Shown here piece after piece: positions 4,167 through 59,429 of a stretch of 64,000 bases of DNA. The notes beneath the pieces are model-generated. The model saw only the letters and a program-made list of their open reading frames with translations. It was not told the origin of the DNA and did no database searches. The DNA is from Granulicella sp. S156. Lineage in GTDB: Bacteria > Acidobacteriota > Terriglobia > Terriglobales > Acidobacteriaceae. Position 1 is the stretch's first letter, and each line of letters opens with the position of its first letter. The translations under genes were made by a program, and so were the position numbers. Location: positions 89,428 to 153,427 of the forward strand of contig NZ_LMUH01000009.1 of assembly GCF_009766105.1 (NCBI RefSeq). The letters run 5' to 3'.

Positions 4167-4988
4167 TTACTTACTCTTAGCCGGTTTGGATCCGGGAGCC
4201 TCGCCCCCGAGTGCGGCTGTAATCTCTGCGGTAGCCTTGCCCAGGGCTTCGATTACCTGGCTGGTTGCCATTGCAGGGCCGTTGTACTGAATGTAGGGAA
4301 TCGTGAGTGCCCCAACAGCCGAACCTCTTTCATCGAAGATCGGGTAGCTGATATCGATAACGCCTTTTACGACGTAGCTCGCGCGCTTGTCATATCCCGC
4401 CTTTTGAATGCGCGCGAGGTGCACGGCAAGATCGCGTGGCGGTTTCTTGCCTGTCTCGCGGCTCCACTCGGCAAGCGTACGCTCCCTTTGCACCTCATCC
4501 TGATGCGCCAGGATGACATAACCACTGGCCGCTTCCATAAGGTCTGCGGTCGAACCCAGCTTCACATAGAAGCCCCGGTTTGCGGGAGCATTGATCTGCG
4601 CCAGAATGGCGACGCGGCTGCCCTCCAGCACACCCATGTGGCACGATTGCAGCGTCTCATGCGCGAGCCGGTGCATCACTGGCAGGGCATCCACAATCAG
4701 TCGCTCGGTTGGTGGATGCTCCTGCACCAGCTTGAACAGCTTCAACGTTAACGAGTAGCGATCTTCGGCGAGCTGTGCGATGTATCCCCGGCGCTCCAGG
4801 CATAGCAGCATGCGAAAGATCTCTGAGACCGTCCGGTTCAGCTCGCGGGCCATCTGGCTCTTGGTGAGGCCGGCTGGCTGGTGCGCCAGCAGTTCCAGAA
4901 CATCCAGCCCCTTTTCAAGAGCAGGTGTTGCATAGTTGAGAGTCTTCTCGTTCGTTGCAGAAGCTTTTGCAGTTCGTTTCCCGGCCAT
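4167..4988 (-). CDS. IclR-family transcriptional regulator
   Basis: A 273-residue DNA-binding regulator with an N-terminal winged helix (residues ~24-85, ALEKGLDVLELLAHQPAGLTKSQMAREL) and a C-terminal effector-binding GAF-like domain (to ~255, including SYPIFDERGSAVGALTIPY). The ATG at 4988 is preferred over the longer open frame reaching 5060 because an AGGTGG ribosome site sits just ahead of it and the helix-turn-helix then begins at the usual distance. IclR regulators often repress catabolic genes and respond to pathway intermediates. Its divergent neighbour is an exported esterase and the downstream gene is a sugar kinase, so it probably controls this glycan locus. A lysine-rich tail follows the effector domain. 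Confidence 0.9.
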   Translation of the reverse strand: MAGKRTAKASATNEKTLNYATPALEKGLDVLELLAHQPAGLTKSQMARELNRTVSEIFRMLLCLERRGYIAQLAEDRYSLTLKLFKLVQEHPPTERLIVDALPVMHRLAHETLQSCHMGVLEGSRVAILAQINAPANRGFYVKLGSTADLMEAASGYVILAHQDEVQRERTLAEWSRETGKKPPRDLAVHLARIQKAGYDKRASYVVKGVIDISYPIFDERGSAVGALTIPYIQYNGPAMATSQVIEALGKATAEITAALGGEAPGSKPAKSK

Positions 4989-5081
4989 TCTGGTCCACCT
5001 GCTCAATCGATCTCGAAACAGAGTAGCAGGATAGCGCCGTAAGTTGATCAGGAAGCCCAAATTCGAAAGAAAGCGAAAGGC

Positions 5082-5100
5082 GTTAGCTATTTTGACTAAC
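5082..5100. promoter_or_regulatory. Palindrome between IclR and esterase genes (candidate operator)
   Basis: GTTAG and CTAAC half-sites (5082-5086 and 5096-5100) are separated by 9 bases in an AT-rich stretch of the divergent intergenic region. The position between the IclR gene and the plus-strand esterase fits an autoregulatory IclR operator. No exact IclR consensus is claimed. Confidence 0.35.
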
Positions 5101-5237
5101 TAAAACTATATTTTTGGTGATAAAAGTTGTTCCGACGAAAGCTCGGTAAGAACGAACAGAGTTGCAGGATTTTTGTGCGTACACACTGCAAGCGCCATCC
5201 ATACAGCCTCACGAGCGCAGCAAATAGGAGTAGCCCC

Positions 5238-57895: not shown

Positions 57896-58891
57896 TTATG
57901 CCTGAAGCGCAGGCTCAGGTAGTTCCGTCAGTCGTTCGGTCAGCAAGTGCTCAAGCCCTTCAAGCGCCTTGGAGAAGCCTTCGATGCCTTCCTTCAGCTT
58001 GTCGTGCGCCATGCGGTTCTCAGCATGCATCTTGTCGAAGGTGGCCTTGTCGACCGTAATCTTCTCGATCGCATCGTCTTTGGAAGCGGCAGGTTCGAGC
58101 TTACGAACCAGCGTGCCTTCGGTAGTCTGCAGCTCTTCGAGCAGCTTGGGTGCGATGGTGAGCAGATCGCAGCCGGCCAGTTCGATGATCTCGCCGGTGT
58201 TGCGGAAGCTCGCACCCATCACGACGGTCTTATAGCCGAACTTCTTGTAGTAGTGATAGATCTCCGTGACCGAGTGGACGCCGGGGTCATCCGCACCCTT
58301 GTAGTCCTTACCGGTGTCCTGCTTGTACCAATCGAGGATACGGCCGACGAACGGCGAGATCAGCGTGACGTGGGCTTCAGCAGCGGCGACGGCCTGGTGC
58401 ATGCCGAAGAGCAGCGTCATATTGCAGTGGATACCCTCTTTTTCGAGGATCTCCGCGGCGCGGATGCCCTCCCACGTAGACGCGAGCTTAATGAGCACGC
58501 GATCGGTGCCGATACCGGCGTCAGCGTACTGCTTGATGATGTCGCGCGCCGCAGCGAGGGAACCCTCGGTGTCGTAGCTCAGGCGTGCATCCACCTCGGT
58601 GGAGACGCGACCCGGGACGATGTCGAGAATCTTGAGGCCGAAGGCCACAGCCAGCGACTTGAACGCCGAAGCCGCGACATCTTTGTCGGATGTGCCGGCG
58701 GGGGCCTTCGCGCGCGCGGTCTGCAACACGCCGTCGACGATGGGCTGATACTCGGGCAATGCGGCAGCAGCCGCAATGAGCGAAGGATTCGTCGTCGCGT
58801 CGGTTGGTTTGTACTTCTTGATGGCATTGATGTCGCCGGTATCGGAAACCACCGTGGTCATCGACTTAAGCTGATCTAGCAGGTTTGACAT
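57896..58891 (-). CDS. tal: Transaldolase
   Basis: A 331-residue class I aldolase of the non-oxidative pentose phosphate pathway that moves a dihydroxyacetone unit between sugar phosphates. Motifs are [10 protein letters not shown] near the start, [12 protein letters not shown], the Schiff-base Lys in [12 protein letters not shown], and [21 protein letters not shown]. The ATG at 58891 has GAGGAG upstream and is preferred over an open frame starting 60 bases earlier. The length is close to the usual TalB size. The gene shares a terminator with the GT-C gene. The candidate promoter at 58950-58955 lies ~60 bases upstream. Confidence 0.95.
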
Positions 58892-58949
58892 AGCAAAACT
58901 CCTCGGTGAGGAAAGTGTGGGGCGCGGTTCGAACGCGCGTAGGAAGTCC

Positions 58950-58955
58950 ATTATA
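58950..58955 (-). promoter_or_regulatory. -10 element of the tal promoter
   Basis: The minus strand reads TATAAT, an exact -10 hexamer, with no good -35 match at the usual distance. The inferred 5' leader to the tal ATG would be about 50 bases. Confidence 0.4.
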
Positions 58956-59104
58956 AATCTCTTTGCCGGCGTTCGCTGGATGCCGCCGAACAGGCGCTTT
59001 CGTCTGCTGTGAACATGGCATGAACGATGCCTGAGCGGAACACGCTAGTTTTCAGCCGCTTGGAGCGGATAATTCCCTGAAAATTGCATCCAAGGAGAAA
59101 GACG

Positions 59105-59215
59105 GAGCAGAGCCCCTATAGGTATACCCAAAGGCAATCATTTGGACGGAGCTTTTCAGCAAGAAAAGCTCCACTCCTCAGCTCTTTCCGGGGGACAGTA
59201 ATAGGGGTTCTGCTC
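59105..59215 (+). ncRNA. Strongly structured leader or small inverted-repeat element
   Basis: A 15-base closing stem (GAGCAGAGCCCCTAT at 59105-59119 with ATAGGGGTTCTGCTC at 59201-59215, one G-U) encloses a palindrome GGTATACC (59121-59128), a CCAAA/TTTGG hairpin (59128-59145) and a 10-bp hairpin (GGAGCTTTTC at 59148-59157, GAAAAGCTCC at 59163-59172). It ends 16 bases before the ATG of the 65-residue protein. It could be a cis-regulatory RNA or a miniature inverted-repeat element; no known riboswitch class is recognised. Confidence 0.55.
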
Positions 59216-59231
59216 TAAGAAGGCAGGTTCA

Positions 59232-59429
59232 ATGAGTGACGAGAAACATGGTGGTGAGCATTCGCATCGCGATACGGGACCGCATCCCCCGCATCCTCAG
59301 GGGATTCCCTATTGGCAACGCGCGCATAAGGACTGGAAGTTCTGGGTGGGTGTTGTCTTCATCGCCGCGGCGATCGTGATCTATGTCCTTACGCTCGATC
59401 TATCCACGGTTCCTCGCCCCCAGCATTAG
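59232..59429 (+). CDS. Small single-pass membrane protein, His-rich N-terminus
   Basis: A 65-residue protein. The first ~30 residues are polar and rich in His (EKHGGEHSHRDTGPHPPHPQG), then WFWVG-like aromatic residues and one membrane helix (FWVGVVFIAAAIVIYVLTL). The ATG at 59232 follows the structured element by 16 bases; the GGCAGG ahead of it is a weak ribosome site. No named family is recognised. The His-rich tail could bind metal but may simply be a spacer. Confidence 0.5.
   Translation: MSDEKHGGEHSHRDTGPHPPHPQGIPYWQRAHKDWKFWVGVVFIAAAIVIYVLTLDLSTVPRPQH

Follow-up and report, generated by a model that had tools for sequence, protein, structure and literature searches.

A 115-bp repeat of Granulicella sp. 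S156, probably a non-autonomous IS630-family MITE, often located at stop codons

Introduction

The repeat that is nearest in kind to the element described here is RUP, the repeat unit of pneumococcus, which has been proposed to be a MITE of IS630-Spn1 (PMC2229807). RUP is described there as 107 bp long, intergenic and bounded by TA, with ends that resemble IS630 ends, and in these respects it is like our element; its arms, as tabulated there, are only 9 bp, whereas those of our element are 17 bp. The present element further differs from RUP in that its central hairpin covaries, its subfamilies, found in several genera, have diverged widely, and its copies are frequently located at stop codons. 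The BOX repeat of Streptococcus pneumoniae is comparable in another way, as it encodes the stop codon in 36 of 58 coding sequences that it overlaps, with truncation not strongly indicated (PMC3049150). However, its ends have been likened to ISSpn2 and not to IS630, and a self-restoring TA+G end of the type found here is not described in the accessible portion of that paper (PMC3049150). ERIC and Correia/NEMIS elements, which we compare by their description, are similarly small (approximately 100–200 bp), have TA termini and give stably folded transcripts (PMC2229807), but occur in other hosts. The kind of element is therefore already known, since RUP is so close to it and BOX is known to supply stop codons.

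Our literature search, which left most subscription journals outside its range, found no account of this MITE family, of a covarying hairpin in it or of a stop-codon excess. Searches on MITEs in Acidobacteria and on Granulicella/Terriglobus repeats and transposases returned nothing on the element in titles and the beginnings of abstracts, and none was found that joined Granulicella with IS630 or that described IS630 insertion "into the stop codon". In the accessible text of PMC8841776 "MITE" occurs in a reference only, and the main text of PMC5900883, whose IS-family table is in its supplement, contains neither "MITE" nor IS630.

Here we describe an element found in a 64,000-nucleotide stretch of the Granulicella sp. 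S156 genome (contig NZ_LMUH01000009.1, positions 89,428 to 153,427; hereafter the window). We consider it to be one copy of a non-autonomous IS630-family MITE, with a probability of roughly 0.9, and the best reading of the family as a whole is that it is a new MITE family of IS630 type which inserts at YTAR. This assignment is based on its length of 115 bp, its 17-bp arms, the terminal TA, its dispersion, its absence at orthologous loci, and the likeness of its ends to those of elements of about 1 kb in relatives that carry an IS630 transposase.

Results and Discussion

The window copy and its neighbors

A preliminary description of this locus had reported a 111-base unit that is closed by a 15-bp stem and is separated by 16 bases from a start codon. 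Both observations were confirmed, the stem being formed by 59105–59119 and 59201–59215 and the start codon being the ATG at 59232. Alignment with other copies indicated that the true unit is longer by two bases on each side (Table 1). Two inner hairpins had also been proposed: the central one (59148–59157 with 59163–59172) is both folded and conserved, whereas the other, CCAAA/TTTGG (approximately 59127–59145), lies outside the RNA minimum-energy fold. The 127-nt stretch 59105–59231 has a folding energy of −53.2 kcal/mol, compared to a mean of −35.0 (sd 3.5) for shuffled sequences, none of which folded equally well (0 of 200; z −5.3), and its z value when folded as DNA is −5.2. The window copy is decayed, as its left TA reads CG, and in its central hairpin one pair is changed on both sides relative to the GGCGC/GCGCC that is usual in its subfamily.

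Table 1. Features of the window at and around the element (window coordinates).
Feature	Position	Strand	Remarks
Whole MITE copy, 115 bp	59103..59217	+	Ends like TAGAGCAGAATCCCTAT subfamily; left terminal TA decayed to CG
Left terminal inverted repeat	59103..59119	+	14/17 complementary to right arm
Right terminal inverted repeat	59201..59217	-	Terminates in TA
Central hairpin GGAGCTTTTC-AGCAA-GAAAAGCTCC	59148..59172	+	10 bp; in fold, conserved across copies
Purine-rich, ribosome-binding-like stretch	59218..59227	+	Directly outside element; putative, from sequence
ORF, 65 codons	59232..59429	+	Small membrane-type protein by look; homologs in six relatives
Transaldolase gene	57896..58891	-	Divergent neighbor; TIGR00874, 465.5 bits (cut-off 396.2)

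Searches of Pfam and NCBIfam with the product of the 65-codon ORF gave no match at E 0.001. From its position, the window copy is presumed to lie in the 5′ leader of this ORF, and it may affect that mRNA. A consensus-based promoter scan of 58850–59300 returned no promoters, and a terminator scan of the same interval returned two terminator-like sites where 0.4 would be expected. Both are on the minus strand; one lies at the left arm of the element (59116–59104), and the central hairpin produced none.

Orthologous loci in relatives

The strong fold, the compensatory changes among copies (see below) and the location 16 bases before a start codon are all features that a cis-regulatory RNA, either a riboswitch or a leader, controlling the small membrane-protein gene would have. 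The small ORF is kept in six relatives (G001, G005, G007, G012, G013, and G015), but the element precedes it in none of them, and a looser search for paired arms between genes was also empty. In addition, copies are scattered over many loci, frequently where an open frame ends, and have a terminal TA and insertion-sequence-like ends. No Rfam match was obtained in the whole window at the gathering threshold, nor in 59000–59300 at up to E 10. We therefore rejected a riboswitch or leader RNA, based on the unconserved position and the lack of an Rfam match, and consider control of this gene by such an RNA very improbable.

Absence from the orthologous sites of relatives is a mark of a MITE and is what was found here. 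The preliminary description had left the choice between a regulatory RNA and a small mobile element, and the mobile element is now strongly supported, while regulation of the membrane-protein gene is not. The copy search that it proposed revealed many copies in the genome itself, more in relatives, and ends matching an insertion-sequence family; the covarying stems that it would have taken as a sign of regulation do exist, but between copies that occupy many different loci and not at a conserved position ahead of homologs.

The 65-codon membrane-type ORF is itself conserved beside the transaldolase gene in several relatives, and the divergent order of the two is the same in G001, G005, G007, and G015. 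At the transaldolase locus of G002 neither the conserved motif of the ORF nor the element was seen.

Copies and host range

BLAST searches of the S156 genome with the stretch gave 18 matches including itself, nine of the others having 76–92% identity to the window copy over at least 86 bases. A search with the arm pattern, allowing up to two mismatches, gave 96 matches in this genome compared to 17 for the reversed pattern; many were paired approximately 115 bp apart and they revealed further subfamilies. We built a covariance model (R1) from 24 copies of this genome, one of which is the window copy (116 bits, E 8e-27; E-values of this model are rough). At E ≤ 0.01 the model identified at least 66 distinct places in the same genome, with the 24 model-building copies included and 150 of 1629 first-look candidates scored.

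Matches to R1, a one-genome model that may miss distant members, were found in 19 of 31 genomes, the S156 genome included, with G012 matching only at E 0.009. The copy-rich G010 has 114 R1 matches and 252 arm matches compared to none for the reversed pattern; the arm matches would correspond to approximately 125 copies on the assumption that each copy contributes both of its arms. In a phylum-wide sample that was passed through stricter filters, five of 149 genomes had matches at E ≤ 1e-5, again with S156 included, and all belong to its family; the survey of 31 genomes adds three from a second family of the same order. In these surveys all genomes with the MITE family thus belonged to two families of a single acidobacterial order. 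A scan of named genomes with a pattern for one end found, among the matches listed (80 of at least 117 stretches), Granulicella, Terriglobus albidus, Silvibacterium, and Acidobacteria bins. The element is therefore like a bacterial MITE in being short, in having terminal inverted repeats and in having many dispersed copies.

In Terriglobus albidus there are head-to-tail arrays of elements with a spacing of 114–115 bp (L213:1350–1760 and 4800–5150; L138:4972–5203), and the array copies of L213 have one fused junction in common. At three other loci (L031, L037, and L038, at about 1400–1550) incomplete copies adjoin another hairpin repeat with GGGCGATGCCCACC-like sequence, which is possibly a second repeat family.

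Relationship to IS630 elements

Three complete IS630-family elements were identified in relatives: L097 (1028 bp), L098 (1030 bp), and L291 (996 bp). Their paired, TA-bounded ends were found without reference to the MITE (L097 and L098 among 26 loci, L291 among seven). When each of the six ends is compared with the most similar of 158 MITE ends, 17–19 of 22 bases agree, a value reached by only 0–1 of 1000 shuffles. For nine ends from five elements of other IS630 groups the agreement is 9–13 of 22 bases, which 112–887 of 1000 shuffles reach. The L097 protein matches both the IS630 transposase model NF033545 (transpos_IS630; 126.5 bits, cut-off 100) and PF13358. The MITE therefore has ends in common with an IS630-family element in the sense of similarity and not of identity, as no IS630 element with ends identical to the MITE end was found and the best agreement was 19 of 22. 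Further single ends at L117, L295, and L106 agree at 15–19 of 22 bases (0–9 of 1000 shuffles) but are not independent support since resemblance to MITE ends was the basis on which they were picked. The transposase frame of each of the three complete elements is split over two overlapping frames, reflecting either expression by frameshift or decay.

These ends also bear on an alternative in which the element is of REP/BIME type and moved by a RAYT (REP-associated tyrosine transposase) and not by a DDE transposase. The element is palindromic and has a high copy number, and RAYT genes have been reported in Acidobacteria (PMC3733652). However, REPs are 20–40 bp as given in the accessible part of that report (PMC3733652), compared to 115 bp here, and the TA-bounded ends resemble IS630 elements, so that we regard a REP-type origin as highly unlikely.

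The DDE_3 domain was matched in 12 of the 31 genomes and the S156 genome is not among them; its copies are probably relics because no DDE_3 transposase was detected there. No autonomous element with MITE ends was seen by eye in this genome among the listed arm matches. Across genomes there is no simple correspondence between copy number and the presence of a transposase: copies are numerous in G000 and G002, where DDE_3 had no match, and G012, G013, and G014 have DDE_3 and just 1–4 model matches. L100, a DDE_3 locus of G010, had no end pair by the rule used. Elsewhere in G010 (L121:1284–1399) a MITE abuts the right end of an IS630 element, with one TA common to both. Two further candidates were discarded: an IS5-type parent, as PF13340 had no matches in the S156 genome, and a pair of inward-facing ends 2.2 kb apart at L158, which turned out to belong to two distinct copies of the MITE.

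The central hairpin

Conservation of the fold was evaluated in an alignment of 19 rows, comprising the window copy and 18 of 19 representatives that are less than 75% identical to one another (L160 was omitted for an internal deletion, and L004 is closely similar to the window copy). Across the 26 pairs of this alignment 96.7% of cells pair, compared to 79.1% after shuffling and 46–49% when slid, with the reservation that complementarity of the arms was a selection criterion for the set from which the 18 representatives were taken. Changes on both sides were found in 17 pairs (11.9 in shuffles), and there were 31 further pair types compared to 26.5, with 9 of 500 shuffles giving as many. In the central helix 98.2% of cells pair, and five of the nine pairs are compensated.

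Many of the relatives' loci were found through a model that includes the hairpin, which biases such figures, and a cleaner estimate starts from one end only. Among the matches listed, this pattern had 131 matches in 117 loci, and 115 of the 131 have a partner arm (at least 13 of 17) closing a unit of 110–119 bp. A central stem of at least 8 bp is present in 102 of these 115 units but in only 24 of 575 base-shuffled interiors. The 16 listed matches that are without a partner arm look truncated, indel-bearing or edge-cut, as judged from at most 140 bases of each, and one of the partnerless matches (L226) looks to have a different interior.

The hairpin is maintained by compensatory change across much-diverged copies, from which we infer that the folded single strand matters, either in transposition or in a transcript. 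Correction by template switching is known in near-palindromes, and the compensatory pattern could be mutational and not selected if one arm is copied onto the other. Such a process would act on arms and hairpin alike, and the window copy does carry a two-sided change; by itself, though, it gives no reason for the hairpin to stay in place in elements of 110–119 bp as often as the one-end set indicates. Template switching could be the source of part of the pattern, and as the explanation of the whole we think it rather doubtful. The interior fold of a MITE that evolves by compensatory change makes it possible to test selection on the fold against movement. The MITE assignment accounts for a recurring, unannotated repeat of a common group of soil bacteria, which need no longer be mistaken for a riboswitch because of its covariation.

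Target site and stop codons

Well-kept copies have TA at both ends within YTAR flanks, from which a TA duplication may be deduced. For the analysis of stop codons we used 157 distinct copies that are bounded by TA on both sides and whose arms are complementary at a minimum of 15 of the 17 positions. C or T precedes the left TA in 121 of the 157 copies and G or A follows the right TA in 130. The TA is followed inward by G on both strands so that each end reads TAG into the element; the third pair is G-C in 23 of the 24 model-building copies of the S156 genome. The count of 298 TAG and 15 TAA among the 314 ends is overstated, since a copy entered the set only when one of its ends read TAG or TAA. 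After the 17-bp arms, TG was found at bases 21–22 in 268 of the 314 ends examined.

Flanks of at least 450 bp were available for 298 ends. In 112 of these a frame that stays open for at least 150 codons reaches the element, and in 97 of the 112 frames the stop is the first codon of the element (8 and 7 in the other phases). A purine follows the far TA in 87 of 92 ends of this stop type compared to 152 of 206 other ends (150-codon cut), an excess that is expected if a stop codon stood there before. To compare insertion sites with other TA sites of the same loci, the element was cut out, the flanks were rejoined at TA and frames of at least 120 codons were recorded; these frames are mechanical and some are spurious. 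The 139 rejoined sites comprised 75 TAA/TAG stops, 34 sites outside frames and 30 inside, and the 7030 control sites comprised 286, 838 and 5906, respectively. With in-frame sites left aside, stops account for 75 of 109 insertion sites compared to 286 of 1124 control sites (p 3e-19), and for 49 of 67 compared to 118 of 304 when only YTAR sites are considered (p 3e-7). Both p-values are optimistic, as neighboring loci may share control sites, and L150/L151 and L249/L266 have common flanks. An earlier control (stops at 660 of 2386 non-coding TA and at 244 of 648 YTAR sites) was dropped because it treated elements and control sites differently. No long ORF stops at either end in 61 of 142 well-kept copies, and the window copy, which is outside the well-kept set owing to the loss of its left TA, is not at a stop. 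At L041:1501–1616 the element lies between pdxS and pdxT and supplies the TAG stop of pdxS. The match of PdxS to its family model extends to the final position (298 of 298), its alignment with a PdxS of solved structure likewise includes the last residue, and the next codon is the TAG of the element; pdxT follows directly, and AGGAG in the right arm precedes its presumed GTG start.

In the IS630-type reading, a transposase would bind the element ends in trans, excise the element and insert it at a TA within YTAR, with the TA being duplicated. Because of the TA+G ends, an element that inserts at the TA of a stop codon (TAA or TAG) restores a stop at the same codon. Gene ends would thus be a safe home for the element, since the stop restores itself and a stop codon also satisfies YTAR when the last sense codon ends in a pyrimidine. 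Such a selfish element would be tolerated where the stop is restored and may gain a survival advantage there. Little damage to the host is probable, as related copies are often exactly on the stop codon of a neighboring gene and supply a new one. The family therefore offers a countable case in which the end sequence of a transposon makes insertion into a stop codon silent.

It is fairly probable, and compatible with the IS630-type MITE reading, that the excess of stops reflects nothing more than YTAR targeting together with purifying selection against other sites, with no gain to the host. YTAR is the observed target and 118 of the 304 control YTAR sites outside frames are already stops. Targeting to YTAR is insufficient by itself, as the proportion of stops at the element's own YTAR sites is significantly higher, but the remainder could come from selection against insertions in promoters.

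More tentatively, and in our view unlikely, the element may serve the host as a portable gene end, which lands in stop codons, restores the stop on either strand and has a hairpin selected as RNA, acting as a 3′ cap or an insulator. If so, the host would tolerate or keep the element, and its persistence without a transposase would be explained. As a variant of this equally tentative proposal, AGGAG in some right arms might make the element a linker of a stop and a ribosome site, as between pdxS and pdxT at L041.
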